DNA of 41,731 bases, from positions 1 to 41,731 of IMG/VR virus record IMGVR_UViG_3300043499_000165. One strand, given 5' to 3'. Below the pieces are notes generated by a model. The model saw only the letters and a list, made by a program, of their open reading frames with translations. It did no database searches and was not told the origin of the DNA. Below are positions 125-41,570 of the stretch, one piece after another (the first letter of the stretch is position 1; each line of letters begins with the position of its first letter). The DNA is from a virus. Made by a program: the position numbers and the translations under genes.

Positions 125-572
125 GGTGGCCGACTCCGCCACAGACGCCGCACGCCCGCTCCTTCTTCGGCGACTTCTTCACGCGATCACCCTCCGTGGT
201 GGTGTTACTCGGAGCGACGACGGGCTCCTCGGTCCGCGGGCCGCTACGCGCCCCCGTTCCACCCGAACGTCGCTCCGACTTCTTGTGGCGGCGGCGGACA
301 GCTGCGGGGACAGGGGTCGCTATCTCCGTACCGTCGAGCGCGGTCGCATCGCTCACCGCCGCCACGTCTTCGTCGTCGCCCTGCCGGCACTCGCCCGGCT
401 TGTGAAGCCTCGAGCAGATCCGGCAGCGCGTTCTCCAGCCGCCCTTCTTCGTCGGAAGCCCAGGAGGCAGGCCTGCAGCTCGTCGCTCAGCCGCCTTCAT
501 CTCGGCCAGATCGTCGCCGTGGATACCCATCGGCAGAACGCGGACCCGTGGACCAGCCCCTGTCTCTGTCAT
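1..572 (-). CDS. Double zinc-knuckle protein (N-terminal part; continues across circle junction)
   Basis: The frame is open from ATG at 572 (ATGA overlap with the upstream ORF) to the left edge. It has two Cys/His clusters: CRICSRLHKPGEC near residues 50-62, and CGVCGGVGHRKDSREC near residues 140-155 (C-x2-C-x4-H-x6-C, zinc-knuckle-like). Between them lies a long basic, Ser/Thr/Pro-rich linker. With the right-end copy the protein is 172 aa and stops at TAA 41661-41663. With the left-end copy it reads in frame into the VRR-NUC gene. The zinc clusters suggest nucleic-acid or protein binding in the early/replication operon. No named family was recognised. Confidence 0.7.
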   Translation of the reverse strand, partial: MTETGAGPRVRVLPMGIHGDDLAEMKAAERRAAGLPPGLPTKKGGWRTRCRICSRLHKPGECRQGDDEDVAAVSDATALDGTEIATPVPAAVRRRHKKSERRSGGTGARSGPRTEEPVVAPSNTTTEGDRVKKSPKKERACGVCGGVGHRKDSRECPEYKGRSGTLKPWSRRVRPAGKEPRTKRASIIAR

Positions 573-688
573 CCGATGCCTTCCATGGAAACCCTCTCGA
601 CCAGCTGGTCCACGAGTTCGCCCCCGCTCGCCGGTTTCCCGCCCCCACGTCCATCCTCCGTGGGGGACGGGTCGCCGGCTTCCCTCAC
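569..688 (-). CDS. Small coupled ORF, 39 aa
   Basis: GTG at 688 to TGA at 569-571, with the stop overlapping the ATG of the zinc-knuckle gene (ATGA). The product is Gly-rich at the N-terminus and acidic/hydrophobic at the C-terminus. There is no clear Shine-Dalgarno sequence. The main support is its position in an operon where nearly every gene is coupled this way. No function is recognised. Confidence 0.35.
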   Translation of the reverse strand: MREAGDPSPTEDGRGGGKPASGGELVDQLVERVSMEGIG

Positions 689-699
689 TCCGGTCGAGC

Positions 700-1077
700 T
701 CAGCCCGTCGGAGTGTTCGCCTCGACAGCTGCCGACAGGGACGCGTTGGCAGCGTCGAGTTCGTTCTTCATCGCGATGAAGTCCTCCGGCTTTCCGCCGG
801 CGTCGATCGCCGCCTGGATCCGCGCGCTGATACCTTCGATCAGGCGCACCGCCGACTGCTGGACCGTCGTCGTCTCCGCGACTTCCGCGCGGAGTTCCTC
901 GAGTTCCGTGGCCATAACCGCTCCTTGGTTTGTGAGGCGTTCCGTGAGGCCCGCCACACGGTTGAGGGTGCTCTCGATCCTCCGGAGAGAATCGTCCTGG
1001 CGGCGCTCCGCTTGGAGCGTCCGCACATCCTGCTCGAGTCGATCGAGTCGTTCGTGAACCTCGCGTCTCTCAGGCAT
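700..1077 (-). CDS. Coiled-coil protein with possible internal start
   Basis: This 125-aa product starts at ATG 1077, overlapping the end of the upstream 63-aa gene by 8 bases. The sequence is a long heptad-rich helix (VHERLDRLEQDVRTLQAER and following), so a coiled coil is likely. An in-frame ATG at 915 has a strong ribosome site (AAGGAG, five bases upstream). A 71-aa short form may be made from the same frame. No family was identified; a structural or regulatory oligomer is possible. Confidence 0.6.
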   Translation of the reverse strand: MPERREVHERLDRLEQDVRTLQAERRQDDSLRRIESTLNRVAGLTERLTNQGAVMATELEELRAEVAETTTVQQSAVRLIEGISARIQAAIDAGGKPEDFIAMKNELDAANASLSAAVEANTPTG

Positions 1078-1261
1078 TGCTTGAGGCCTCCGGTGCTGGC
1101 AGCTTGAGTCGCGCCACGACGCGATTGAACGCGACTTCGGCGACTCTGAATCGCTTCGTGCTCGACCATGGATTTCGCAGGACGAGAGCGATCGCATCGA
1201 GGTCCTCGTCCAGCGTCGGGCCTTCTACCGCCATTGCCTGTGCCGGTGCTTCTCCGTTCAT
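1070..1261 (-). CDS. Small hypothetical protein, 63 aa
   Basis: ATG at 1261 lies three bases after the stop of the glycosidase-like gene, and the ORF ends inside the start of the coiled-coil gene. The product is mixed alpha-helical with no Cys, signal peptide or membrane segment (contains LDEDLDAIALVLRNPW). Function is unknown; it belongs to the same leftward operon. Confidence 0.55.
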   Translation of the reverse strand: MNGEAPAQAMAVEGPTLDEDLDAIALVLRNPWSSTKRFRVAEVAFNRVVARLKLPAPEASSNA

Positions 1262-1264
1262 CGG

Positions 1265-2581
1265 TCAGTCCCTCAGCAGGTAGACGGCGTCGCGCGCCGC
1301 AATGGTGACGCGGGTGACTGGGCCGGTGGTCACACCTCCGCGCTCGGCACCGCCGATCAGGTACGCCGGCCAGGGCGTGGTGACGTCGGTGGTGACCGAG
1401 CGCGGGTTCACGATCACGGCGCCGTACTGGAACTCGCGGACGTAGACGCCGAGCCCGCCGAGCTCGCGCGTCGGCGTCACCGCGCGTCCGAGCCATCCGG
1501 CGGCGCGCCGAGTCGGCTTGCCGGTGTTCCGGTCAACCGAGTACTCGTCGAGCCACCAGTCGATGTAGGGGATCCGCCAGTCGTAGTTCCCCGGGCCCGC
1601 CACGAAGGCGCACTCACCGAGACAGGCGTTGCCCAGACCGAAGCGGAGGTCGGCGCGGAACTCCGGGCCACCCTGATAGCTCCCGGCCCAGCGCGGGATC
1701 ACGGCGATGACCGACAGGCGCCGCGGCGACATCTGGTACGACTCCCGGAGCAGGCCGAGCGGGCCGAGCATGTTGTTGCCCCAGCCCACCGGGTTCTGGT
1801 TCGGGAAGTTCTCGCGCCACCAGCCATCGACCCGATCACCACCCGGGTAGTCGCCGGCGGGCCCGCCGTTGCCGATCAGGGTCAAGTCGGGGAACCGGTA
1901 GCGCAGCTCGGAGAGGAGCGCGCCCTGGGCGCCGCGCATCGCGCCGTCCCAGTCCTCGAGCGAGCTGTAGCCGGCGCGCCGGTAGTCGATCTGGTTGTCC
2001 GGGGTCACGCGCCAGCCGTTGCCGGTGCACACCGGATCGATCAGGGCGCCGTCGAAGAGACCCGTGCCCAGGACTTCAGTCCATATCTCGACCAGCCGGG
2101 CGCGCACCCCCGGGACGCAGATGTTGGCGGTGTAGGTGTTCGGCGCGCCCCACGGGGATCCATCGGGGCGGCGGAAGTAGTCGTCGCCCACGGCATCGTA
2201 GATCCGTGCCTGGTACGAGCTGCGGTCCGAGCTGTTGACCGGCCAGTACGGGGCCACCAGCAGGTGGGCGACCACCTTCGTGCCGGCGCGCCGGATCTCG
2301 CGCAGGACGTCAGCGTGGTCGTCCCACAGGTAGGCGGGCTGGACGCACCAGTAGCCGAACCGCTGGATCTGATCGAGAACATCGGTGTCGACAATCTGCT
2401 CGCGGAAGTCGAGCGGGTCCTGCTTGAGCAACGGCATGCCGGCGCCGTTGACGCCCTCGTGGAGCATCACCTTGGGGAATGCGCCGGTGTTCGGTTCGGT
2501 GATGCGGTGGAAGCCAGAGGCGTCGACGAAGTAGCCGAAAGCGCCCCAGATCTGGTTCAGCCAGCCGTACTTGTTGGGCAT
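1265..2581 (-). CDS. Putative TIM-barrel glycoside hydrolase-like protein
   Basis: A 438-aa protein started by ATG 2581 behind a clear GGAGG site. It resembles the hypothetical glycosyl hydrolase (GHL/DUF) families built on a TIM barrel: strand-like blocks such as FGYWCVQPAYLWDD, TKVVAHLLVAPYW, LFDGALIDPVC and LTLIGNGG are spaced like barrel strands with acidic residues at their ends. There is no signal peptide. It may degrade or bind host surface polysaccharide, but its place among early/replication genes rather than tail genes is odd for a depolymerase. The catalytic pair cannot be assigned by eye. Confidence 0.5.
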   Translation of the reverse strand: MPNKYGWLNQIWGAFGYFVDASGFHRITEPNTGAFPKVMLHEGVNGAGMPLLKQDPLDFREQIVDTDVLDQIQRFGYWCVQPAYLWDDHADVLREIRRAGTKVVAHLLVAPYWPVNSSDRSSYQARIYDAVGDDYFRRPDGSPWGAPNTYTANICVPGVRARLVEIWTEVLGTGLFDGALIDPVCTGNGWRVTPDNQIDYRRAGYSSLEDWDGAMRGAQGALLSELRYRFPDLTLIGNGGPAGDYPGGDRVDGWWRENFPNQNPVGWGNNMLGPLGLLRESYQMSPRRLSVIAVIPRWAGSYQGGPEFRADLRFGLGNACLGECAFVAGPGNYDWRIPYIDWWLDEYSVDRNTGKPTRRAAGWLGRAVTPTRELGGLGVYVREFQYGAVIVNPRSVTTDVTTPWPAYLIGGAERGGVTTGPVTRVTIAARDAVYLLRD

Positions 2582-2900: not shown

Positions 2901-3053
2901 TCAGGCAGCCTTCTCGGTGGGCTTGTGGCCGCGGCACGGACGGGTCAGCCGATGCACGCAGTCGATCGCGGCCAAGAACCGCATGACGATCGGCAGCTTG
3001 TGCCACTCGTCGCAGCGGCAGACGGCGAGGCAGTCGGGACAGTAGTGGGCCAT
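2901..3053 (-). CDS. Cys/His-rich mini-protein, 50 aa
   Basis: ATG 3053 overlaps the stop of the HerA-like gene (TGATG), and the stop abuts the next ATG. The N-terminus is MAHYCPDCLAVCRCDEWH, and further Cys/His occur near residues 32-43. This gives enough ligands (C5, C8, C12, C14, H18, C32, C40, H43) for one or two zinc sites. The coupling suggests it is made in step with the ATPase, perhaps as a partner. No known family. Confidence 0.55.
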   Translation of the reverse strand: MAHYCPDCLAVCRCDEWHKLPIVMRFLAAIDCVHRLTRPCRGHKPTEKAA

Positions 3054-4828
3054 CACGCGACCCCCAGCTCGTCGACGGCGCGGATCTCGGCGCGCCCTTC
3101 GATCAGCTCGAGCGTGCGTAGGCGCGAGAGCGCGTTGCGGTAGGTGCTGCTGTCAGGCGAACTGCCGGCCCTCTTCGCGAGGTCCTCGCGGGCTACCGAG
3201 TTCGGCCAGTATCCGAGCAGCTCGTGGAGTACTCGACCGGGCATGGACTGTCGGCCGACGCGGTCGAGCCAGTAGGCAGCGAGATTCCCGCCGGCAGCGG
3301 CCGGCAAATGCACCTGGCCACCGCCAGCGTGGTAGCCCTCGTCGGTCACCATCAGGCCATCACGGCCGCCGGTGATCAGGCCCTTAGTGCGTAGGCCGCT
3401 GAGGATGTTCCGGAACGTCGAGCTGCGGACGGAATAGCCGGAGACGAGCGCGGCCTTGCGGGCCGGCGTGCGCAGATGCGGCTTCTCGAGCAGCGCGTGG
3501 AGCAGCGCCAGCTCTCCCTTCGTGAGCTTCACGTCCCCATTCATCGACGCCGGCCGACCCGACGCGCCCCTGGCCCCCATGGCAGGTGGCGCGCTTCGCA
3601 CCGACGTCGATGGACGAGAAGTGACCAACGGGTCCGGGATCATGGCAGGGGATGGCCGCATCCCTCGCTCCCCCGGACCCGCCGGAACTGTGTAGGCGCC
3701 CGCGTGATCGCGGTGCACCTGGTGGGTGGCGTTCACCAGGCGATCGAAGGCCTCGCGCACGCCACCCTGGAGCTCGTACATCCGGTCGACCATTCCGCGG
3801 AGCGCCTCGAGCTCGTGGGGCTGGAGGACCGGGACTTCTACACGCTCGGGCGCCGGCGGCTTGAGCTGCTTCATCTCCGCAAGTTCACGCTCGAGCGTGG
3901 CGATCCGGGCCCGGAGCGCCTTGGGATCCGCCGCGGCCGCGCGCTCGACCACGTCCTTCATCGACGCCTCGAGCTTCGCCAGGTCGACCTTGGCCAGCTT
4001 CACCGACGGCGCGGCGGTGCCCACCTTGGGCGTGGCGCTGGCGTCGTAGGTGCGGCGCGGGTCGATGTGGATCAGGCCGAACCGCTCCAGCCAGGAGGGC
4101 GACCAGACGAAGCACTGGCCGGTCTTCAGCTTGGGCAGCTGGTCGATCGAGGCCTGGACGTCGTGCTCGACGATCCAGTCCTGGATCGCGCGGCGCTCCT
4201 GCTTGGCGATCGTCCGGAAGACGAACAGCGTCCCCACCTGGTTCAGGGCGTCCTTGTTCACCGCCTGGGGGCGCTGCGAGATCAGCGTGTGGCCGATGCC
4301 GAAGTTGCGGCCGATCTTCGTCAGGTCCTCGAAGGCGCCCACCATGCGCGCCTCCTCGTTGCCTTTGAACTGCGGCAGGAAGGTCTGCGCCTCCTCGATG
4401 AACAGGTGGAGCGGGGAGCGCTCAGACTTCTTCCGGTGGAACAGCTGCTCGGCGAACGCGGTCGCGAACTCCTTGCGCTGGCCCTTGCGCAGCATCGAGA
4501 CGTCGATCACCGCCGACGTGCCGGTGTCCACGATCGTGTCGGCGACCAGCGCGCCGGCGCCGGGCTCGAGCGGGATGTCGCCGTGGATCCCACCGAGCAC
4601 CGGGATCTCGTAGCCGGCTCCCTTGCCGCCGGGCCCGACGCGCAGGCCGTACCAGACCCCGACCGGATCCAGCACCACCACCTGGGCGTGCGCCTCGAGC
4701 AGCAGCTCGGCCAGCTTCGAGGCGCCGTACGTCTTGCCGCCCCCGCTGGTGCCGAGGAACGCCGTCTTCTGCGTGACGACGTCGAGCGGGATCCGGAGCT
4801 CGGCGGCGAGCTGGAGGAGCGCGCTCAC
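3053..4828 (-). CDS. HerA/FtsK-like P-loop ATPase with C-terminal winged-helix repeats
   Basis: A 591-aa protein starting at GTG 4828 (GTGA overlap). Walker A GTSGGGKT is at residues 26-33 and Walker B HLFIEEAQTF near 141-150. The following SQRPQAVNKDALNQ block is typical of HerA-type (DUF87) hexameric DNA translocases. A coiled-coil stretch near residues 300-330 follows. Two related winged-helix-like units then occur in the last 170 residues, each with an SSTFRN/SSTYRN core followed by a Leu-rich recognition-like helix. It probably pumps or remodels DNA. It lies directly downstream of a ParB-like gene, and a nuclease gene (VRR-NUC) is in the same transcription direction across the junction. 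The exact role (partition, recombination, replication or defence) is not shown by sequence. Confidence 0.8.
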   Translation of the reverse strand: MSALLQLAAELRIPLDVVTQKTAFLGTSGGGKTYGASKLAELLLEAHAQVVVLDPVGVWYGLRVGPGGKGAGYEIPVLGGIHGDIPLEPGAGALVADTIVDTGTSAVIDVSMLRKGQRKEFATAFAEQLFHRKKSERSPLHLFIEEAQTFLPQFKGNEEARMVGAFEDLTKIGRNFGIGHTLISQRPQAVNKDALNQVGTLFVFRTIAKQERRAIQDWIVEHDVQASIDQLPKLKTGQCFVWSPSWLERFGLIHIDPRRTYDASATPKVGTAAPSVKLAKVDLAKLEASMKDVVERAAAADPKALRARIATLERELAEMKQLKPPAPERVEVPVLQPHELEALRGMVDRMYELQGGVREAFDRLVNATHQVHRDHAGAYTVPAGPGERGMRPSPAMIPDPLVTSRPSTSVRSAPPAMGARGASGRPASMNGDVKLTKGELALLHALLEKPHLRTPARKAALVSGYSVRSSTFRNILSGLRTKGLITGGRDGLMVTDEGYHAGGGQVHLPAAAGGNLAAYWLDRVGRQSMPGRVLHELLGYWPNSVAREDLAKRAGSSPDSSTYRNALSRLRTLELIEGRAEIRAVDELGVA

Positions 4829-5081: not shown

Positions 5082-6587
5082 TCAACGGGACCGCTTCTTC
5101 GAGGCCGCCTTCTTGGCGGCCTTCTTCGGGGCTGGCTTGGACTGGGGCGACTCACCCTTCAGGGCGGCGCGCGCGTGATCCTCGTGCTGCTTGTAGATCG
5201 CCTTGGCGTCGATGCCGAGCGCGTCCGCGAGATCGTCCCCGTCACCATCGGCGGTCAGCCCGTACGCCAGGGCTTCCTGGACGGACTTGATGGAGACCTT
5301 GGCGACCCAGTCACGGCGGCCCTTGTCGGTCTCGGGGATCGTGAGCTTCCGCTGCTTTGCGAACTCACGGAGAGCCCAGGACCGGCCACCCAGCAGCAGC
5401 ACGCGCAGACACTTCTCCGGCGAGAGCTGGCCGACCTTGGCGTAGATCGCGCCCTCGATCGCCTCGTTGGCCTTGTCCTGCGCGTCGCGGAGCGCCTGCT
5501 CCAGCTTGGGATCGGACTTCGGTGCTTCCCGCGGCGTGGCCCCCCCGCCCCCGGAGGAGCCGCGCGCCGCGGTCGCCACGCGGGATTTCCGCGCGCGGAT
5601 CTCAGATGCCCAGTGGGTGCTGCACTTGTTCTTGTCCACGCAGACGAGGAACGACTCGCCGCGGTGGAGCCCGGCGCGCACGTATCCCAGGACCGAGTAG
5701 TCGCAGGTCTTCGATTTCTCCTGTCCGTCGGCGCGCTTCCACGATGCGGAGTGGTAGATCCGATCGTTGCCCATCGAATCCTTCGCCGACGGCGGGGTGT
5801 AGTGGCCGAAGGTGACCGCGACGACCTTCCGCCCCGTGTCTTCAGCCTGCTCGAGCGCGAGCGCGGTCTGCGGGTAGAGCATCGGATCCACGCGGCTCGC
5901 GTCGAATCCGACATGCTGGTCCACCCACGCCTGCAGCTCGCGGACGCTGACCGCCTTCGTGCTGTCCTTGGTCGTCGGGTCGGCTTCGTCCCACATGACT
6001 TCCTGTCGCGTGAACGTCCCCTGTGCCAGGGCGCTCTTCTGGTCGGCGGGCTTCAGCCGCGACAGGACGATCGCGTGGCCCGCGAGGATCCGGCCGGCGA
6101 GGAAGTGCTCGCGGCCCTCGGGGATCAGCTCGAGCAGCTTCACGCGGTCGTAGACGTAGGCCACCGAACGCCCGATGTGCTCGCTCACCCCAGCTGCGTC
6201 CAGTTTCGCGAGCTGCATCAGGCGCCGGTAGCCCTCTGCCTCCTCGAGCGGATGGAGGTCCGCGCGGTGGTTGTTCTCGATCAGCTGGAACTCGAGGGCC
6301 TCGGACTCGCCCATCTCGCGGACGACCGAGGGGATGTCGAACTGGCCGGCGACGCGGGCGGCCGCCAGGCGGCGGTGGCCGGCGACCACCTCGTAGAGCT
6401 CCCCGTCCGGGCGGACGAGGATCGGCATCAGCACGCCGTTGTTGCGGACGCTGGTGACCAGGTCGTCGAAGTCAGGACCCTTGGTCCGGTTCGACGGGTT
6501 GGTCTTCGACTGCGTGATATCCGCGACTGGGATCCGCAGGTACTGCTGGGCTGGCATCGAGGCCGGGACTACCGCCGATGCTTCCAT
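5082..6587 (-). CDS. ParB/RepB-type DNA-binding protein
   Basis: 501 aa, started by ATG 6587 behind GGAGG. The N-terminal ParB/Srx-like domain shows LRIPVADITQSKTNPSNR, then LMPILVRPDGELYEVVAGHRR (residues about 55-75; GHRR is the conserved nucleotide-binding motif). A KorB-like HTH region follows (DAAGVSEHIGRSVAYVYDRV). The middle has Cys residues (KTCDYSV, FLVCVDKNKC), and the C-terminus is Lys-rich. No ParA gene is nearby; the neighbouring ATPase is HerA-like instead. It could bind phage DNA for segregation, silencing or replication control. Seen: domain and context. Inferred: role. Confidence 0.8.
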   Translation of the reverse strand: MEASAVVPASMPAQQYLRIPVADITQSKTNPSNRTKGPDFDDLVTSVRNNGVLMPILVRPDGELYEVVAGHRRLAAARVAGQFDIPSVVREMGESEALEFQLIENNHRADLHPLEEAEGYRRLMQLAKLDAAGVSEHIGRSVAYVYDRVKLLELIPEGREHFLAGRILAGHAIVLSRLKPADQKSALAQGTFTRQEVMWDEADPTTKDSTKAVSVRELQAWVDQHVGFDASRVDPMLYPQTALALEQAEDTGRKVVAVTFGHYTPPSAKDSMGNDRIYHSASWKRADGQEKSKTCDYSVLGYVRAGLHRGESFLVCVDKNKCSTHWASEIRARKSRVATAARGSSGGGGATPREAPKSDPKLEQALRDAQDKANEAIEGAIYAKVGQLSPEKCLRVLLLGGRSWALREFAKQRKLTIPETDKGRRDWVAKVSIKSVQEALAYGLTADGDGDDLADALGIDAKAIYKQHEDHARAALKGESPQSKPAPKKAAKKAASKKRSR

Positions 6588-6960: not shown

Positions 6961-6990
6961 CGAGGCGCCGGAGACTTCTTCGGCGCCTCG
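6961..6990 (+). terminator. Hairpin terminator after the tRNA fragment
   Basis: A perfect 10-bp inverted repeat CGAGGCGCCG / CGGCGCCTCG with a 10-base loop is followed on the plus strand by ACCCTTTTC. It could end transcription of the reconstituted host tRNA after integration, and could also affect transcription from the minus-strand integrase side. Confidence 0.6.
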
Positions 6991-7050: not shown

Positions 7051-7905
7051 CTAGTCGGACGACGTCCGCGCCAGCGGGCGCCAGCGTGTCGTCGTCTCGT
7101 GGATCCGCTCGGCTTCGCGGCGAACCATCTCGTCGCTCAGTCGAGCGTACTGCTGCGTCGTGGTCACCGACTGGTGACCGAGAACCTGCTGCAGCGCCGG
7201 CAAACTACCTCCGCTCTCGATCCATCTGCAAGCGAAAGTGTGCCGGAGCTGGTGAACGTGGAACCGTCCGACACCACTCCGGCGCCGGACCAGCTTGTTG
7301 AACGAGCCGTTCGCGCACTCGACGTACGGCACCAGCGGACGGTCACCGCGCAGGGCGATCTCCGCCTCGATGCTGGGATTCAGGGGCACCCGTCGAACCC
7401 TCGTCGACTTCGTCCGGTGGACGACGATCATGCCGTGGGAGACGTCGGCGCTCCGGGCCCGGACCAGCTCGCCCCACCGGAGGCCAGTGGCCAGGGCGAG
7501 GCGGACGATGAAGGCGTGGGGCTCCCCGATCGAGAGCACCGCCTCGAGCTCGCGGTCGTTCAGCCGGTCCGGCGGGCTCTCCTGAATCCGGGGCATGACC
7601 CTCCGCGGGAACGGGGACCGGCAAATCATGCCGCCCTCCACCGCCCAGTTCACCAGGCTCCGCGCGTCGGCCAGCAGGTGGCGGACGGTGCGCGGCGCCA
7701 GTTCGCGCGCTTCCAACGAGAGCCGGTAAGCGCGCAGGTCGTCGGGGCACAGGCAGGACAGCTCGATGGTCCCGAGGGAGGGGACCAGGTAGTCACGAAC
7801 GCGCTGAGCGGCCATGCTCATGTTCTTCGGGCTCCGTGCCGTTGCTACGTACAACGCCAGCCAGCGTTCAGCTACCGTTGCGACCGTCACACTGGGTACG
7901 GGCAA
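7051..7905 (-). CDS. int: Tyrosine recombinase (phage integrase)
   Basis: 284 aa. The catalytic set of tyrosine recombinases is visible: R143 (ATGLRWGEL), K166 (HRTKSTRVRR), H218-x-x-R221 (HQLRHTFA), H244 (LGHQS) and nucleophile Y253 (TQQYARL). The N-terminal 100 residues form a SAM-like core-binding domain. The start is taken as TTG 7905, because no ATG lies upstream in frame; GTG 7890 is an alternative. It presumably catalyses integration at the adjacent tRNA-Met attP and excision from the host chromosome. Confidence 0.93.
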   Translation of the reverse strand: MPVPSVTVATVAERWLALYVATARSPKNMSMAAQRVRDYLVPSLGTIELSCLCPDDLRAYRLSLEARELAPRTVRHLLADARSLVNWAVEGGMICRSPFPRRVMPRIQESPPDRLNDRELEAVLSIGEPHAFIVRLALATGLRWGELVRARSADVSHGMIVVHRTKSTRVRRVPLNPSIEAEIALRGDRPLVPYVECANGSFNKLVRRRSGVGRFHVHQLRHTFACRWIESGGSLPALQQVLGHQSVTTTQQYARLSDEMVRREAERIHETTTRWRPLARTSSD

Positions 7906-29018: not shown

Positions 29019-29041
29019 CCATTCCACAAAATGTGGAATGG
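29019..29041. promoter_or_regulatory. Palindromic operator-like site between divergent genes
   Basis: Perfect 10-bp arms CCATTCCACA (29019-29028) and TGTGGAATGG (29032-29041) with AAA between. It lies in the spacer between the leftward spike-base gene and the rightward connector gene and covers the ATG at 29031. It looks like a repressor/activator site rather than a terminator, being AT-balanced and without a T-run. Confidence 0.6.
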
Positions 29042-29612
29042 GAATCATGGGTGGTCGGTGCCTACTGTCGCACCCGTGAACGAGCTCGCTTACATCCCCG
29101 GTCGCATCGCCGCAGGCACCACCGTGAAGTACTCGCGCTCTTTTTCGGACTTCCCCGCGAACGACGGCTGGACGATGAAGGTCTGGCTGGCCGGCGCGAT
29201 CGCCAGCGGCGTCGACGCGGTCGCCGATGGCGCCGGGTTCGACGTCACGCTCAGCGCAACCTTCACCGCGACGTTGACCCCGGGGAACTACCGGTGGGTC
29301 GAGCGCGTCACCAAAGGCTCCGACATCTACGACGCGGCGAGCGGCACCCTGGTGGTGACGCCCAATCTGGCGACCGCGTCCGCCGGCAGCTTGCTCTCGT
29401 ACGAGGAAAAGACGCTCGCGGTGATCGAGTCCGCGCTCACCGGCTCCCTGACGAAGGGGATGGAGAGCTATCAGATCGACGGCATCGCCGTGGTGAAGCT
29501 CGACGCTGAGAAGCTCGAGAAACTCCGGATCAAATACCAGAACGCGGTCAACCGCCTGAAGAACGGCGGACGCCTCGGCCGCATCCACCGCGCCACCTTC
29601 CCGAGGGTCTAG
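29031..29612 (+). CDS. gpW-like head-tail connector with N-terminal beta domain
   Basis: Up to 193 aa; starts at GTG 29058 or GTG 29076 are possible, and the latter gives ELAYIPGRIAAGTTVKYSRS directly as N-terminus. The first ~110 residues look like a small beta-sandwich; the last ~65 (YEEKTLAVIESALTGSLTKG...LDAEKLEKLRIKYQNAV) resemble lambda gpW, with the helix-hairpin pattern. It sits immediately before the portal gene, as W does in lambda. Confidence 0.7.
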   Translation: MWNGNHGWSVPTVAPVNELAYIPGRIAAGTTVKYSRSFSDFPANDGWTMKVWLAGAIASGVDAVADGAGFDVTLSATFTATLTPGNYRWVERVTKGSDIYDAASGTLVVTPNLATASAGSLLSYEEKTLAVIESALTGSLTKGMESYQIDGIAVVKLDAEKLEKLRIKYQNAVNRLKNGGRLGRIHRATFPRV

Positions 29613-29615
29613 CCC

Positions 29616-31307
29616 ATGAGCCCAGCCGCGCCGTTCCAGCGCCTGCGGCGCGCCTGGGGCGCGGCCGTCAGCGAGCTCCGAGGCATGACGCCGGCGAGCG
29701 CCCCGCGCCCCCGCGATGTCGGCCCCCGCGTCGTGCCGCCCACCATGCCCCAGACGCGCGCGGCGTTCCGCGCAGCTGCAGTGTCCCGGCTCGACCTGGA
29801 CTGGCGCCCATCTCTCGTTTCCCCCGACGACGAGATCCGTGGCGTCCTGCGGTTGCTGCGCGGCCGCGCGCGCGAGCTCTCCAACTCGGAGCCGATGGTC
29901 GGCCAGTACCTGAATCTTCTGTCCGCGAATGTGCTGGGCCCGGACGGGATCCAGCTGCTGGCGGTGAACGGTCCGGACGGCGAGATCGACGACGAGGCCA
30001 CCGAGATCATCCGCGACGGCTGGGAAGCCTGGTGGAACGGCCCGGTCACGGCCGACGAGCAGATGAACGGCCCCATGTTCGAGGCGCTGCAGCTCGAGAC
30101 CACGGCCACCGACGGCGAGAGCTTCTCGCGGATGCTGGTCGGCCGTGACTTCCGCGACGCCCTGGCGCTGGAGCCGATCGACGCCGACCTGGTGCCCGAT
30201 GGCCTCAACCGGAGCGCCGGATTCTCAGCCCCCGAGATCCGCCTCGGCGTCCAGGTCGACGAACGCGGCCGCCGGACTGGCTACTGGATCCACGAGCTGT
30301 CGTCGTACTCGCCGGGCAGCCAGATGGGCCGGCCCTACATGATCCCCGGCGACGAGATCATCCACGCGTATCGCCCGCGGCGCGGCAACCAGACGCGCGG
30401 GATCTCGTGGCTGACGCGGGCCATGATGATGTTGAACCACGGCGGGCGCTTCCTCGAGGCGGGCGTGATCGGCGCGCGCGTCGGCGCCAGCCAGATGGGC
30501 TTCATCAAGTGGAAGGACGAGAGCCTGGCGCCGGCGACCACGGACCCCTCGACCGAGGGTGCGACCACGGAAGGCGGCGGCGGCGGCGAAGGAACGGGCA
30601 GCTCGAGCTCCCAGCGACCGGAGATCGAAGTCGAGCCGGGCACGTTCCCCGAGCTCGACCCCGGCCAGGAGTTCCAGGAGTGGTCGCCCCAGTACCCCAA
30701 CACGACCACCGGCGAGTTCATGAAGGTGATCGACCAGCGCACGGCGTCGGGGCTCGGCGCCCAGTACCACTCGCTGGCGAACAACCTCGAGGGCGTGAAC
30801 TACAGCTCGATGCGTGGCGGCGAGCTGTTCCAGCGCGATCTGTGGCGGATGCTGCAGCAGATCTGGATCTTCAGCTTCCGGCGACGTATCTACGAGCGCT
30901 GGCTCCAGACCGCGATGCTCGCGGGCCGGATCCAGCTGCCGAGCCAGGACTGGCGCCGCTACATCAACGTCACGTGGCAGCCCCGCGGCTACGACTGGGT
31001 CGATCCGAAGAACGACCTCGAGGCCGAGGAGCTCGAGCTCAAGCTCGGCGGCACGTCGCTGACGGAGATCCTCGCCTCGAAGGGCCGGAACCTCCGCACG
31101 ATCATCAGCCAGCGGAAGCGCGAGAAGGAGATGTTCGAGAAGGCCGGGTTAGCGCTGCCCGAGCACCTGCGCGATGCGCCCACGCCGGCGCCGGATGGTC
31201 CGCCGGCGGGCGCCAAGAACGAGCCGCCGCCCGCGGATGACGACGCCCCCACGAACGGCAACGGGAACGGGAAGTCCATCAACCGCCTGCTCGCAGCGGG
31301 GCACTGA
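29616..31307 (+). CDS. Portal protein (lambda gpB-type)
   Basis: 563 aa. The sequence has the lambda-portal family features: RARELSNSEPMVGQYLNLL, NGWEAWW-like and WEAWWNGP, DGESFSRMLVGRDF, LEPIDADLVPD, and GDEIIHAYRPRRGNQTRGIS. C-terminal low-complexity Pro/Asp/Gly/Asn tail. It forms the dodecameric ring at the packaging vertex. The start is ATG 29616, three bases after the connector stop. On the plus strand, unlike terminase. Confidence 0.92.
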   Translation: MSPAAPFQRLRRAWGAAVSELRGMTPASAPRPRDVGPRVVPPTMPQTRAAFRAAAVSRLDLDWRPSLVSPDDEIRGVLRLLRGRARELSNSEPMVGQYLNLLSANVLGPDGIQLLAVNGPDGEIDDEATEIIRDGWEAWWNGPVTADEQMNGPMFEALQLETTATDGESFSRMLVGRDFRDALALEPIDADLVPDGLNRSAGFSAPEIRLGVQVDERGRRTGYWIHELSSYSPGSQMGRPYMIPGDEIIHAYRPRRGNQTRGISWLTRAMMMLNHGGRFLEAGVIGARVGASQMGFIKWKDESLAPATTDPSTEGATTEGGGGGEGTGSSSSQRPEIEVEPGTFPELDPGQEFQEWSPQYPNTTTGEFMKVIDQRTASGLGAQYHSLANNLEGVNYSSMRGGELFQRDLWRMLQQIWIFSFRRRIYERWLQTAMLAGRIQLPSQDWRRYINVTWQPRGYDWVDPKNDLEAEELELKLGGTSLTEILASKGRNLRTIISQRKREKEMFEKAGLALPEHLRDAPTPAPDGPPAGAKNEPPPADDDAPTNGNGNGKSINRLLAAGH

Positions 31308-31954
31308 TGCGCGGCGCCCCCTGGATCCTCCTGGCGGCGCTGGCGATCGCGGCGCCCGCGGCGGCCTCCGCCCCCGACACGCTGACGTTCACCATGCCGG
31401 ACAGCTTCGCGATGCCCGAGAGCCCCTGCGATTCGATGGCGGTCCCCGAGCAGGGCCTGCTCGGCGTGCTCCTCGAGCGCATGCGATCCGATGAGTTCGA
31501 CTGGCAGGTGGTCGACTCCCTGCTGGGGCTCCAGCCCGGCCAGCCGGTGTCGATGCACATAGACATCACCGGCTGTCGGCCGTGCGCGTTCCGGCTGTGG
31601 GTGATCGACGAGGCGCGCAACCCCGGGTGCCTTCCCTCGAGGACAGTCAACCGCTGGGAGCTCGGCGAGCCGGTGGGGGTCGGCGATCCGCCGGCCTTTC
31701 AGCTGGGCCGCGTGACGCCGATGCCGGTGCGCCGCCTGGCGGTCGTGGAGTTCCAGCTCGCGCGAGAGTCCGAGGCGGTGCTCGAGCTGTTCGACCTGTC
31801 AGGCAGACGGGTGCGCACGCTCGTGAGCGGCGCACAGGCGGCCGGGCACCACCTCGCGCTGCTCGACGCCGGCCAGCTGCCCGCCGGGCTCTACCTCCTG
31901 CGCCTGCGGGCGGGCGAGCGCCAGGCGCTGCGCCGCTTGGTGGTGATGCGGTGA
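31307..31954 (+). CDS. Secreted protein with FlgD/T9SS-like C-terminal sorting domain
   Basis: 215 aa, TGATG overlap with the portal gene. Signal peptide MRGAPWILLAALAIAAPAAA. Mature part begins with Pro/Asp-rich sequence and has four Cys in the middle (ESPCDSM, ITGCRPCAF, NPGCLPS). The last ~55 residues (ELFDLSGRRVRTLVSGAQAA, LPAGLYLLRLRAGERQAL, RRLVVMR) follow the classic FlgD-Ig/type-9-secretion C-terminal domain. This domain is typical of FCB-group, Gemmatimonadota and Eisenbacteria secreted proteins. A host-type export tag in a head-gene cluster is unexpected. Confidence 0.8.
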   Translation: MRGAPWILLAALAIAAPAAASAPDTLTFTMPDSFAMPESPCDSMAVPEQGLLGVLLERMRSDEFDWQVVDSLLGLQPGQPVSMHIDITGCRPCAFRLWVIDEARNPGCLPSRTVNRWELGEPVGVGDPPAFQLGRVTPMPVRRLAVVEFQLARESEAVLELFDLSGRRVRTLVSGAQAAGHHLALLDAGQLPAGLYLLRLRAGERQALRRLVVMR

Positions 31955-34114: not shown

Positions 34115-34422
34115 CGGGACTCCTCTTCTTGCGGCGGTTCCGATTCCGCCATCTCGGCGGCGGCTCTCTCAAAGTAGGCTCTTGTCTCGCGCAACTCTTC
34201 CGCGAGCTCTGGCTCCATCGGATGATGCACCCGGTCCTCAAGCAACCTGTCGGTCGGATCGCACCGGCGACCACGATCCCCCGGATCCCGGGCGATAACC
34301 CAGCCCTTCGGATCGCTCTTGCGTTCCTCCAAGAGGAACGCGAGAAGCCTGATAGCGCGTCTCCCGTTACGGAGATCCCGTCGCCGTTGCTGGTCATCAC
34401 TCATGGGGCGGGAGTCTATCAT
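34111..34422 (-). CDS. Hypothetical helical protein, 103 aa
   Basis: ATG 34422 overlaps the terminase stop (ATGA); internal ATG 34404 is a second option. Charged, helical, Arg/Glu-rich (RRAIRLLAFLLEERKSD, ELAEELRETRAYFERAAAEM). No family recognised; a terminase-adjacent accessory. Confidence 0.55.
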   Translation of the reverse strand: MIDSRPMSDDQQRRRDLRNGRRAIRLLAFLLEERKSDPKGWVIARDPGDRGRRCDPTDRLLEDRVHHPMEPELAEELRETRAYFERAAAEMAESEPPQEEESR

Positions 34423-37179: not shown

Positions 37180-37815
37180 TCAGTTCTTCTTCCCCCCGGT
37201 CATCGCCTTGCGCACGTGCGTGGTCAGGGCGGCAGGGAAGCTGCCGTCGCCAGCGCGCTCGAGCAGCCAGCCGCGGAACTCCAGCCAGGCGTCCTTCTGA
37301 CCCTCGTTGTCGAACTCGAGCATGTACAGGATCTTCCCCGCGCGGCGGCCGCGTGGTGCGCGCTCCTTCGGTTCCTCGATCGACTTCTCGAGCTCGCGGA
37401 TGTCCTGGTCGGTGAACCCGAGCATCTGGTGGGTGAACCCAGCCTTGATCGACGCGTCGATCTCGCCGGCGAGGATCCCGGGCTCGTAGTCGCCGTTCTC
37501 GGACGACCGGTTATGGATGATCCGGTAGGCGCGGCTCTGCTCCGGCGTCAGGTGGTCGTGGTTGATCACCGGGACGTGGGTCAGGTTGAGCTTCCGCGCG
37601 GCCAGCAGCCGCCGGTGCCCGGCCAGGATCCCGTCCTTCGTCGAGACCTCGATCGGACTGGTGAACCCGAACTCGAGCATCAGCATCGCCATCTCGGCGA
37701 CGCGCGCCGGCGAGTGTCGCTTCGGGTTGCGGTCGTACGGCTTCAGCTTCTCAATCGGCCAGAGCTCGGCCTTCGTCGCCAGGTGGATCCCGGTGGACGC
37801 GGCGCGGCGGCTCAC
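37180..37815 (-). CDS. Small ParB-like nuclease-domain protein, 211 aa
   Basis: GTG 37815 overlaps the upstream stop. ParB N-terminal domain: IEKLKPYDRNPKRHSPARVA, FGFTSPIEVSTKDGILAGHR, RRLLAARKLNLTHVPVI. C-terminal part is helical with Lys/Arg end. No KorB HTH, so differs from the 501-aa ParB. Such genes beside terminase are common in phages; role unknown. Confidence 0.8.
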   Translation of the reverse strand: MSRRAASTGIHLATKAELWPIEKLKPYDRNPKRHSPARVAEMAMLMLEFGFTSPIEVSTKDGILAGHRRLLAARKLNLTHVPVINHDHLTPEQSRAYRIIHNRSSENGDYEPGILAGEIDASIKAGFTHQMLGFTDQDIRELEKSIEEPKERAPRGRRAGKILYMLEFDNEGQKDAWLEFRGWLLERAGDGSFPAALTTHVRKAMTGGKKN

Positions 37816-38099
37816 CTGGCTAACCCATTCCAGCCGACGATCATCATCGATCGTGTGCCAAACCGAACTCCGATGGCCCCGCCGCCGAGACTCCACATCG
37901 AGTCGGGCCCGCAGATCGCGACCAGCTCCCAGATCTGCCGCTCCTGCGCACGGGCCAGCATCACGGTCGTGTCGATGGACGCGACCTCGGCATGGAGACG
38001 CTGGATCTCCTCCCCGCGCTCGATCGCCTGGAAGCCCCACGCGAGAAAACCCAGGATGACGCCTGTCATTATCGCGACCATCATTCTGATCACAGTCAC
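37812..38099 (-). CDS. Small membrane protein with N-terminal anchor, 95 aa
   Basis: GTG 38099 or 38093. Starts MVAIMTGVILGFLAWGFQAI, one membrane span, then a coiled-coil helix (ERGEEIQRLHAEVASIDTTV) and a hydrophobic tail. First gene of the terminase operon after the palindrome zone. Function unknown. Confidence 0.6.
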   Translation of the reverse strand: MTVIRMMVAIMTGVILGFLAWGFQAIERGEEIQRLHAEVASIDTTVMLARAQERQIWELVAICGPDSMWSLGGGAIGVRFGTRSMMIVGWNGLAR

Positions 38100-38110
38100 C
38101 CTTCCGATCT

Positions 38111-38129
38111 GTCAACCAAGTTGGTTGAC
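38111..38129. promoter_or_regulatory. Operator-like palindrome GTCAACCAA-G-TTGGTTGAC
   Basis: Perfect 9-bp arms with a G centre. Two further half-sites GTCAACCA lie at 38202-38209 and 38211-38218 as a direct pair. They are just upstream of the first terminase-operon gene. A site for a regulator or terminase is likely. Confidence 0.65.
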
Positions 38130-38155
38130 AACCTGTACTACCACCGAATCCGTCA

Positions 38156-38341
38156 TCACCGTGCGCCGCAACCGGCTGCGCCGGTTGAGTGCGCTTCACA
38201 TGTCAACCATGTCAACCAAGTTTTCGGACTGTGCACTGAGGCGATGTCGAGGTCGCCGTCACCCGTGTCCGGGTTCGGTGGAAGGACCCGTGACCGGCTC
38301 ATGAGCCGGTGGATGAGCCGGTGAGCCGGTGAACAGGTCAT
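38156..38341 (-). CDS. Doubtful ORF over the palindrome zone, 61 aa
   Basis: ATG 38341 overlaps the upstream stop (ATGA), but most of the frame lies over repeats, so the peptide is repetitive (HRLIHRLMS, TWLTWLT). I regard the zone 38100-38340 as mainly non-coding. Confidence 0.2.
   Translation of the reverse strand: MTCSPAHRLIHRLMSRSRVLPPNPDTGDGDLDIASVHSPKTWLTWLTCEAHSTGAAGCGAR
38293..38330. repeat. Palindrome plus half-sites, GAGCCGGT cluster
   Basis: ACCGGCTCATGAGCCGGT (38293-38310) is a perfect 18-bp palindrome. It is followed by direct half-sites GAGCCGGT at 38315-38322 and 38323-38330. Nearby AACCGG-ctgcg-CCGGTT (38170-38186) adds another. Multiple sites before terminase genes resemble a packaging (cosB/pac) or operator region. 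Confidence 0.6.
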
Positions 38342-39123: not shown

Positions 39124-39509
39124 CAGATGGCCCTTTCCCACAGATCGCCCATGGCCTCGAGCTTCTGCACCACGTACTCGTCGAGCTGCGGGAAGCCACG
39201 CTCACGAGCAGCTCTCATGTGCCCGCCGATCTCGAGTGGTGTGGCATTCGCTGATGCTGCACACCTCAGCATCTCGACCATGAACGCAGCGTGTCGCTCA
39301 CGCTCCGACGGTGACTGCTGCTTCTCCCAAGCCATGATCCGCTCACCGACCGCCGCCTTCACCAGCATCACGAACATCCCGATCTCGTTCTTGACGCCAC
39401 CCTTGCGATTCAGGTGATGAACCCGGGATGCGAGGGCGAGGATCTTCCTCTGGGTCAGCAGCTCGCCCCAGTGCTTGGTCTGCTCGTCGATCACGCCCTG
39501 GGGGATCAC
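39123..39509 (-). CDS. Hypothetical protein after the replication gene, 128 aa
   Basis: GTG 39509 overlaps the organiser stop (GTGA). All-helical (QRKILALASRVHHLNRKGGV, FVMLVKAAVGERIMAWE). In the position of a helicase loader such as lambda P but short and without visible ATPase motifs. Function unknown. Confidence 0.5.
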   Translation of the reverse strand: MIPQGVIDEQTKHWGELLTQRKILALASRVHHLNRKGGVKNEIGMFVMLVKAAVGERIMAWEKQQSPSERERHAAFMVEMLRCAASANATPLEIGGHMRAARERGFPQLDEYVVQKLEAMGDLWERAI

Positions 39510-40591
39510 GCGGCACCTCGCGCACGTCCGGAGAGCGAGATCCCACGAGCTGCAGCAGCACGCTTCACCAGGTCGGCGAAGTAGGCCGGCGTGGACTTTC
39601 GGATCACGCCTCGGCGGCGCGCCTCGAGGGCCTCCGCCAGGGCGCATCGGATCTCGAACTCCGAGAGCCGTGATGCGAGCAGAACGAAGAACCGGCGTGA
39701 GCGCTGGTCACCGAGACTGGCGACCAGGTCATCGACGATCACCCGCTGGCGATCGCGCTCCGCCGCGTTCCGATCGTCTATCTCTTCTGCTGGAAGACTC
39801 GAAGAATCAACGTTCTCTGTACCGTTGCTTCTAACGTTTATTGCGGCCGTTTTGGCCGCTTCACTCCCCGAACCGGCGATGTCGTTGTCGCGCAGAGGTC
39901 TGAGTGAAACGGCCATTTCGGCCGGCACACCCCTGAGTGAAACGGCCGATTCGGCCCCTTCACTCTGCCCGGGTAGTGAAACGGCCATTTCGGCCGCTTC
40001 ACTATGCGCGTGCGACGGGAGTGAAACGGCCGTTTTGGCCGCTTCACCCTCTGAGGCCCGATCTCCCGGTGGGACGGCTCGGAGTCCGTCCACAGGGAAG
40101 ATCGTGGTCTGGGCCGCAAGGGCGGAGGCACGCTCGGCCTGAATCGCCAGCAGCGCAGCCTCGTCTTCGGGTGCCACGGGATCAACCAGACTGATCAGGT
40201 ATCGGTCAGGATCGCGAACAGTCCGGCCAACGGTCCGATCGAAGCGCCAGCGGCTCTCACGAACGAGGAACCCTGACGACTCCAGGCGCCGAAGAGCAGC
40301 TCGGGCCCGCTTCTCACCTCCAAGGCCTGCAGCGATAGCGAGCTCGTCCTGTGGAGGGAGCTCGAACCACGCGTCGGCACCCGGGGCACTACGGCGGGCG
40401 AACTGCGCCCGCATCCAGAGAATCAGCTGAACGGCCTCGGGCCCGAGCCGGGGCGCCCAGCGCTGCAGGAAGTACAGCGTGATCGGCAGCACCTGGTCAG
40501 GGCGCACGATCGCGTCCTGCGCGTCGGGGAACCACGGCTCCATGCGCAGCTGCTCGATCTGGGCGGTGCGATCGTCCATGACTTTGATCAT
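39506..40591 (-). CDS. Replisome organiser / initiator-like protein with internal iterons
   Basis: 361 aa, ATG 40591 (ATGA overlap). N-terminal half is a helix/winged-helix (AVQLILWMRAQFARR, PPQDELAIAAGLGGEKRARA, ALRRLESSGFLVRESRWRF), typical of phage replication initiators. The middle encodes a repeated SEAAxxAVSL motif, five times. The C-terminal helical domain (RSRRFFVLLASRLSEFEIRC) may bind the helicase. Like lambda O, the DNA encoding the repeats is itself iterated. No helicase or primase is encoded nearby. Confidence 0.7.
   Translation of the reverse strand: MIKVMDDRTAQIEQLRMEPWFPDAQDAIVRPDQVLPITLYFLQRWAPRLGPEAVQLILWMRAQFARRSAPGADAWFELPPQDELAIAAGLGGEKRARAALRRLESSGFLVRESRWRFDRTVGRTVRDPDRYLISLVDPVAPEDEAALLAIQAERASALAAQTTIFPVDGLRAVPPGDRASEGEAAKTAVSLPSHAHSEAAEMAVSLPGQSEGAESAVSLRGVPAEMAVSLRPLRDNDIAGSGSEAAKTAAINVRSNGTENVDSSSLPAEEIDDRNAAERDRQRVIVDDLVASLGDQRSRRFFVLLASRLSEFEIRCALAEALEARRRGVIRKSTPAYFADLVKRAAAARGISLSGRARGAA
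39837..40048. repeat. ori: Five iterated 29-bp palindromes: probable replication origin
   Basis: Units at 39837-39865, 39903-39931, 39936-39964, 39975-40003 and 40020-40048. Arms AGTGAAaCGGCC and GGCCGcTTCACT surround a T-rich core. The three central/right copies have both arms almost complete; the first lacks the left arm and the second lacks the right. Start spacings 66, 33, 39 and 45 bases are all multiples of three, since they also encode protein. This resembles initiator-binding iterons inside an initiator gene. Confidence 0.7.
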
Positions 40592-41091
40592 GCACTCATC
40601 TCCACCGCACCGGATCCGCTGGTTGCGCGGGTCGTACGCAACCCTCGGTAGTCGGCTACCTGCGTGTCTCTCCTGATCACGAGCACCGCGTGCCGTCTCG
40701 GAGAGATGCCGAGTCGGCGCCGGCGGCGAGCACTGCAGGTCATACTCTTGACGCGCTGCCGGGCCCGCGCGCAGCCCTCGCACCGCCGCGCGTTCTTGTG
40801 ACCAATGAACCGAAGGCTGCAGTCCATCTCGACACAGGTGCGCCACACGAAAGGCCCAGTCACTACGCCAGGGGAAGGGCGCCTCTTGAGGTCCAGGTCC
40901 TCGAGGGACTTCTTCTGGTGCGGCCACAGCCCCATATCCGCTCGCCGGCAGTCATTCCGGATCCGCAGGCGCTCGTACTGCAGGAGGCGCGCGCACCGGG
41001 AGTGATACTTCCGGTTTCGATAGCCGAAGCCGAGCGCGTGGCCGCAGAACTCGCAGGGTCGGTTGTTCACCGGTAGGCGGACGCGCTTCAC
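40588..41091 (-). CDS. Zinc-finger protein, 167 aa
   Basis: GTG 41091 overlaps the VRR-NUC stop (GTGA). Two Cys/His clusters: CEFCGHAL...HSRC near residues 13-33, and CSLRFIGHKNARRCEGC near residues 91-107. The rest is basic. Early-operon nucleic-acid binding likely. No named family. Confidence 0.65.
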   Translation of the reverse strand: MKRVRLPVNNRPCEFCGHALGFGYRNRKYHSRCARLLQYERLRIRNDCRRADMGLWPHQKKSLEDLDLKRRPSPGVVTGPFVWRTCVEMDCSLRFIGHKNARRCEGCARARQRVKSMTCSARRRRRLGISPRRHAVLVIRRDTQVADYRGLRTTRATSGSGAVEMSA

Positions 41092-41570
41092 GACTTCCCT
41101 CCCTGGATATGGCCGCGGCGGGTCTCGATATAGTCCGCCAGCTCGCCGATCTCGTGGATGGTGAGACAGATCGCGCCAGCAGCTGCGAGGCGCGAGTGCA
41201 TGCGCACCTGGGCGGGCGAGCGCTTCGCCCCGCCGGTCTTCAGCTCGAGCACGAGCATCTTTCCGTCTGGCGGTAACGCGGCAATCACGTCCGAGAACCC
41301 GCGCTGATCCCGGTTGGAGAGCAGCTCGAACCCGCCGCCTTCGCGCGGGCGTACGCGCGGCCCGGTGTGGATGGGGATAGCGGGGATGCCAGCGAAGGCC
41401 AGCAGCGAGAGCGCCCCCGCCTGGAGGCTGGTGTGCCGGCGCTGGGATCCGCCGACCGCCAGCTGCAACTCGCTCGGCCGGATGCTGCCCCGCGCGATGA
41501 TCGAGGCGCGCTTGGTGCGCGGCTCCTTCCCGGCTGGCCGCACTCGCCGACTCCAGGGCTTGAGACTCAC
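41088..41570 (-). CDS. VRR-NUC domain nuclease
   Basis: 160 aa, GTG 41570 overlapping the small upstream ORF stop (GTGA). GFSDVIAALPPDGKMLVLEL then KTGGAKRSPAQVRMHSRL is the VRR-NUC pattern: Asp (SDV), Glu-x-Lys (LELK) and Gln (PAQ), the PD-(D/E)xK active site. Early phage nuclease, often linked to replication or recombination. In the left-end sequence variant it would be fused to the zinc-knuckle protein. Confidence 0.85.
   Translation of the reverse strand: MSLKPWSRRVRPAGKEPRTKRASIIARGSIRPSELQLAVGGSQRRHTSLQAGALSLLAFAGIPAIPIHTGPRVRPREGGGFELLSNRDQRGFSDVIAALPPDGKMLVLELKTGGAKRSPAQVRMHSRLAAAGAICLTIHEIGELADYIETRRGHIQGGKS

Follow-up and report, generated by a model that had tools for sequence, protein, structure and literature searches.

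The five palindromic iterons that lie within one gene of this phage, together with the AT-rich stretch that adjoins them, are very probably a replication origin, lodged inside the gene for its own initiator (a protein that we call P0001) and bound by that gene's product. We read them in this way from the sequence, from a predicted structure and by analogy with known initiators. The window, by which we mean the whole 41.7-kb stretch of DNA analysed (IMGVR_UViG_3300043499_000165), is a viral record of class linear. An initial annotation of it had already suggested a candidate origin-type array in an initiator gene, and that suggestion is strengthened here by a predicted winged helix, a disordered linker, an AT-rich 3' side and arrays in homologues. 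What are these repeats for, and is it the DNA or the peptide that has been kept?

An Array of Dyads Inside One Gene

A repeat search found a 29-bp dyad in five copies, all in register, starting at 39837, 39903, 39936, 39975 and 40020 and spanning 39837-40048, all within the P0001 gene. On the coding strand, the layout is 12 bp, a 5-bp A/T-rich center and another 12 bp (12-5-12), as in AGTGAAGCGGCC GAAAT GGCCGTTTCACT.

39506 to 40579, minus strand: P0001 gene, putative initiator, 357 aa, ATG start (basis, open reading frame and homologues)
40020 to 40048, minus strand: dyad 1, GGTGAAGCGGCC AAAAC GGCCGTTTCACT, arm pairing 10/12
39975 to 40003, minus strand: dyad 2, AGTGAAGCGGCC GAAAT GGCCGTTTCACT, arm pairing 11/12
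39936 to 39964, minus strand: dyad 3, AGTGAAGGGGCC GAATC GGCCGTTTCACT, pairing 12/14 over its full length
39903 to 39931, minus strand: dyad 4, arm GGCCGTTTCACT intact, other outer arm degenerate, pairing 8/12
39837 to 39865, minus strand: dyad 5, arm AGTGAAGCGGCC intact, pairing 7/12

The initial annotation had counted five 29-bp dyads in one gene; the five copies are real, but only three keep both arms nearly complete, and the other two have each lost one outer arm (that of dyad 5 runs into the AT-rich stretch), which leaves eight good half-sites, AGTGAARCGGCC, of a possible ten. When the 41.7-kb window is searched for this half-site with at most one mismatch, all eight matches fall inside the array and none outside. 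The spacings (66, 33, 39 and 45 bp) are each divisible by three, as had been claimed, and the copies, all sharing one frame, spell SEAAEMAVSL-like peptides, in agreement with the SEAAxxAVSL repeat read there earlier. We considered helical phasing of the dyads and rejected it, 33, 39, 45 and 66 bp amounting to 3.1, 3.7, 4.3 and 6.3 turns.

When codons were permuted inside the gene with the protein sequence exactly preserved, none of 5000 such synonymous shuffles contained eight half-sites, the shuffle mean being 1.1; motif-specific tests of this kind were devised after the sequences had been seen. All the dyad copies draw on codons that this phage seldom uses (AGT, 4% usage; TCA, 3%; AAA, 4%; GTT, 8%; GAA, 13%). 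Among 23 window genes tested for repeat excess, the P0001 gene is a clear outlier (z = 7.6), and one tail gene follows with a weaker excess (z = 3.9). When viral contigs were searched for the exact pattern, two turned up (L005 and L006), both unrelated and with one site each rather than an array. Two lone, near-perfect palindromes of 28-30 bp lie elsewhere in the window, at 34317-34345 and 6961-6990, and are unlike the array in sequence.

An Adjoining AT-Rich Stretch

On the coding strand, the last dyad is followed, immediately on its 3' side, by the 50 bp with the lowest GC content in the gene.

39794 to 39843, minus strand: AT-rich stretch, presumed unwinding element
39809 to 39814, no strand assigned: AACGTT hexamer, inside the AT-rich stretch
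39833 to 39838, no strand assigned: second AACGTT hexamer, 24 bp from the first

The GC content of this stretch is 0.40, against 0.66 for the gene, and none of 100 synonymous shuffles went as low; among 23 window genes tested (40 shuffles), only the P0001 gene has a significantly low-GC stretch. As a control, the same test applied to lambda O placed the lowest GC at gene position 438, just past the annotated iterons. In the window and in most relatives of P0001 (L028, L011, L012, L018, L025 and L026 among them), the lowest-GC 50 bp lies in the array or just 3' of it; significance was not reached in every relative, and in L028, none of 100 synonymous shuffles was as low. AACGTT occurs six times in the 41.7-kb window, and it recurs at the equivalent place, in varying frames, in eight relatives (L007, L011, L017, L019, L027, L028, L039 and L040), often as a pair at a distance of about 25 bp. 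That it might be a second recognized motif of the origin is only suggestive, the hexamer having been spotted post hoc in the sequences.

A Protein with the Predicted Architecture of an Initiator

P0001 matches nothing in Pfam or PHROG, and this holds for two profiles that one might have hoped to see: Phage_rep_O (Pfam), without a match in P0001 or in nine relatives scanned, and RepA_N (PF06970), without one in P0001 or in the relatives scanned. The predicted structure says more.

40100 to 40477, minus strand: N-terminal winged-helix domain, predicted DNA-binding, residues about 35-160 (basis, model, Foldseek and HTH_36 in homologues)
39548 to 39790, minus strand: helical C-terminal domain, modeled as four helices with moderate confidence, residues about 264-344

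An AlphaFold model of residues 22-168 is a winged helix (pLDDT 81). When it was compared with the PDB by Foldseek, ranks 1-5 went to DnaD and to the N-terminal domain of RepA_N Rep (4pql and 5kbj, which we take to be RepA_N proteins), with probability 0.99-1.00, E of 0.004-0.02 and TM of about 0.4-0.5, a resemblance of fold only; a Rep-DNA complex is among the top matches. Among viral proteins, first place goes to a putative replicon initiation protein (E 6.6e-5), with replication protein O ranking lower (E 1.4e-3). Winged helices are widespread, and the E-values here are modest. A model of the whole protein is poor (pLDDT 50) and yields only generic winged-helix matches. Between the two domains, residues about 154-262 are predicted to be disordered (pLDDT 24-33), and this segment coincides exactly with the part encoded by the array. 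The C-terminal domain, which is presumed to contact the replisome or a helicase, is conserved in sequence in L028 and recognizable by eye in L017, L019-L023 and L027. The predicted domain architecture agrees with the parallel with lambda O that had been drawn: an N-terminal winged helix, a linker at the array and a helical C-terminal domain.

The surroundings of the gene are of some help.

41088 to 41570, minus strand: gene upstream of P0001, endonuclease- or Holliday-junction-resolvase-like (phrog_93, 2e-8; phrog_5702, 5e-7)

A nuclease-like neighbor is consistent with a replication module. The P0001 gene is not followed by a clear helicase-loader gene, and conservation with L028 does not extend to the gene downstream. 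Cumulative GC skew reaches its minimum at 40,958, a position that carries no information on the origin so near the contig end at 41,731 and in a sequence with nearly all genes in one direction. The window also encodes two ParB-like proteins, at 5082-6587 (minus strand, with ParB_N and HTH_ParB) and 37180-38199 (minus strand), and an integrase at 7051-7905, which together hint that the phage is temperate or plasmid-like in its lifestyle; among the window genes scanned, none was recognized as ParA. At 3053-4828 (minus strand) lies a HerA/AAA-like ATPase (DUF87, AAA_10), which may have an HTH at one terminus. The head module is unusually split, with the portal gene and its neighbors at 29031-31954 on the plus strand and the terminase and tail genes on the minus strand.

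Relatives in Phages and Chloroflexota

Searches with the single protein (viral contigs, and tblastn of phage and plasmid records) returned no relative, and the terminase, used as a query, retrieved only distant phages. A genome scan did better: two Chloroflexi loci, L007 and L008, are 26-28% identical to the N-terminal domain of P0001, in an alignment that reaches well past the short motifs (DPVAPEDE among them) with which that first scan had been seeded. Profiles built from these (E <= 0.001) then found members in 16 of 301 and later 37 of 400 sampled Chloroflexota genomes, about 17 of the 400 being strong, in a count whose profile already contains many of those members and for which newly found strong ones are few. 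Identity across the N-terminal domain is 24-36% for Chloroflexota members. The profile search also brought in a single viral contig, L028. Its 285-aa protein shares 42% identity with P0001, C-terminal domain included; the contig also has a terminase 47% identical to that of the window and, directly upstream of the initiator, a RusA-like open reading frame, as read from the sequence.

Some members carry recognizable domains. A C-terminal DnaA_N domain is found in L012 (8e-14) and L007 (5e-6, over the Pfam cutoff), and HTH_36 (PF13730; gathering cutoff, 25 bits) is found in L018 at 30.5 bits, with L015 (24.7) and L028 (22.7) just under the cutoff and P0001 without a match. The genes beside L007 and L008 read as ParA/ParB-like. 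L025 (gene at 562-1986, minus strand), L046, L048 and L050 are distant Chloroflexota relatives with open frames of about 700 aa; the linkers of the last three are repetitive as well.

Most of the relatives examined have a repeat array of their own, in the same linker and with differing sequences. L028 has three copies of GGCCGAAAAACGGCC (identical dyad cores), spaced by 33 and 28 bp and lying in frames 2, 2 and 0, such that the peptide shifts from PKAEKRP to AGRKTARK; 0 of 5000 synonymous shuffles matched the three copies. In L015, three 29-bp dyads fall across all three codon positions, and one of them is a perfect 12-5-12 palindrome (12/12). The 29-bp dyads of L013, of TTGCAAACGGTCAAAATGGCAGTTTGCAA type, are offset in frame from those of the window (0/5000 synonymous shuffles); those of L016, L018 and L026 are of TGACAANTTGTCA type, and a GTTCANNNTGNAAC-type dyad in L017, L019-L021 and L035 shows a modest excess over the null. 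The arrays of some relatives consist of short, 15-bp dyads. L025 has given up palindromes for eight tandem direct iterons of about 22 bp (0/5000 synonymous shuffles), and these are followed by AT-rich direct repeats (AACTCTTTAACTCTTAAAACC).

No significant array was seen in L022 or L023 with the tests used, and the signals in L012 and L014 are weak. In most relatives, a seed-free score for palindromes had too little power. In a control, the seed-free repeat test missed the known iterons of lambda O; the missing signal in L014, L022 and L023 is therefore weak evidence. One unifying idea, that the GGCC cores common to the window and L028 dyads are one motif, was rejected, the spacer between GGCC and GGCC being 5 bp in one and 7 bp in the other.

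Operators, Hairpins, Centromeres or Peptides?

Of the other readings, the one that fares best (and we still think it unlikely) takes the dyads for operators, used by the initiator or some other regulator to control transcription through the initiator gene, with the origin elsewhere. The size of the palindrome would suit a dimeric regulator, and transcription regulators too have winged-helix folds, but the array sits in mid-gene and not at a promoter, with no promoter-like site found nearby, and several copies beside a significantly AT-rich stretch, recurring in homologues, are a better fit to an origin. Both roles could coexist.

It is less likely again that the repeats work as hairpins in the mRNA, for attenuation, stability or protein binding. 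The transcript does fold much more strongly than shuffles (z = -8.6), and the recurrent arm mismatch would be a G-U pair on the coding strand; such folding is, however, expected of any palindrome, two copies have lost an outer arm with no compensation, and relatives with 15-bp dyads or, in L025, direct iterons follow the logic of a DNA site rather than that of a hairpin.

We give equally little credence to centromere (parS-like) sites for a phage ParB, tempting as it is to connect the array with the ParB that the phage does encode at 5082-6587, with the ParA/ParB-like genes that flank the initiator in L007 and L008 and with an outer arm, GTGAAAC, that resembles a parS half. The halves are unlike parS in spacing and orientation, a pattern search of the window gave only sites with three mismatches, elsewhere than the array, and the layout is kept in relatives whose arm sequences are unrelated; after that pattern search, we rejected the identity with parS.

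A repetitive linker that functions as a peptide, or a neutral expansion of repeats within a disordered segment, would explain why all window copies share one frame and spell SEAAxxAVSL, yet it is just as improbable in the face of rare codons in every copy, synonymous shuffles that failed 5000 times out of 5000 to reproduce the half-sites and copies in differing frames in L028 and L015.

Those frames deserve emphasis. Copies that lie in different frames in two relatives (L028 and L015) argue that it is the DNA, and not the peptide, that is maintained, and since spacing in multiples of three is absent from both, the simplest account of the peptide repeat in the window is that it came along with in-frame duplication. 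Constant layout and position, with sequence, frame and peptide all changing, are the signature that one looks for, in sequences, of protein-binding DNA sites. The initial annotation had placed DNA and protein both under repeat pressure, a view at odds with an L028 third copy that is out of frame and with L015 dyads in all three frames. It had also named an outcome that would speak against an origin, a peptide kept while synonymous codons vary freely, and the opposite was found.

A Known Design, Probably, in an Unfamiliar Family

An origin inside the gene of its initiator is a known trick. Lambda O, SPP1 gp38 and RepA_N Rep all bind repeats in their own gene; a neighboring AT-rich element then unwinds, and helicase or primase is recruited (PMC7466680, PMC6316719, PMC5703833), and the best reading of the P0001 family, by analogy, is that it follows this design in an initiator family that Pfam and PHROGs do not name. 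It is the starter family itself that appears to be undescribed.

Each of the three likenesses has its limits. Every lambdoid iteron is an inverted repeat, and the iterons lie midway along the initiator gene, with an AT-rich tract 3' of them; lambda O binds DNA with its N-terminal part and contacts the replisome with its C-terminal part (PMC7466680); the inverted-repeat iterons inside an initiator gene and the adjacent AT-rich element are both present in the window. The earlier claim that palindromic dyads set this phage apart from lambda was, on the same source, mistaken. What does differ is size (29-bp dyads, 12-5-12, spaced by 33-66 bp, against 18-19 bp and 20-24 bp in lambda); no sequence similarity of P0001 to lambda O was detected, and there is no conserved P-like gene downstream.

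In the RepA_N protein of pSK41, a winged-helix N-terminal domain binds Rep boxes that are central in the rep gene, a C-terminal domain contacts the replisome and the linker that the origin encodes is dispensable for replication (PMC5703833); this dispensable linker fits the disordered, frame-drifting linker of the P0001 family. The Rep of pPR9 is a PF13730 hybrid initiator with an HTH_36 domain (PMC5703833), a domain that among the homologues of P0001 passes the cutoff in L018, and P0001 itself has, in its predicted fold, a DnaD-like winged-helix N-terminal domain. RepA_N proteins, however, belong to Firmicutes plasmids, whereas the P0001 family is found in a high-GC phage and in Chloroflexota elements and has a different C-terminal domain or, in some relatives, DnaA_N. 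SPP1 offers a phage origin-binding protein, gp38, with its binding repeats and an AT-rich unwinding element (oriL) within gene 38 (PMC6316719), much as we suppose for the putative protein here, but its sites are described as direct repeats, it has a second origin elsewhere and no sequence similarity to P0001 was found.

In the mechanism that we favor, the N-terminal winged-helix domain, probably as a dimer, would bind each 12-5-12 dyad; several occupied dyads would build a nucleoprotein complex, and the AT-rich stretch at 39794-39843 would open; the C-terminal domain would then recruit helicase or primase from the host. Where the origin is translated, the protein would have a disordered spacer whose sequence follows largely from the DNA sites. 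The analysis shows the array, its conservation as DNA, the AT-rich neighbor, a predicted winged-helix fold and a layout that recurs in homologues; the steps themselves (binding of the dyads by P0001, opening of the DNA and recruitment of helicase) and actual origin activity are what we infer.

A broader account is possible, and although we would stop just short of betting on it, we think it worth stating. A family of initiators with the DnaD/RepA_N fold, spread across phages and Chloroflexota elements and unrecognized in Pfam and PHROGs, may write its origin within the linker part of its gene, with sites that drift freely through reading frames, change with the recognition helix of the clade and are now palindromic, now direct; a neighboring AT-rich element with recurrent AACGTT would be kept as a second recognized motif.

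What does this mean for the phages and Chloroflexota elements concerned? With a protein that had previously been without annotation, they would now have a recognizable replication initiator and a predicted origin. The changes of reading frame are sharp evidence that repeats embedded in a gene are DNA sites. And the origin-in-initiator design would be one that recurs in initiators unrelated in sequence: lambda O, SPP1 gp38, RepA_N and, if we are right, the P0001 family.
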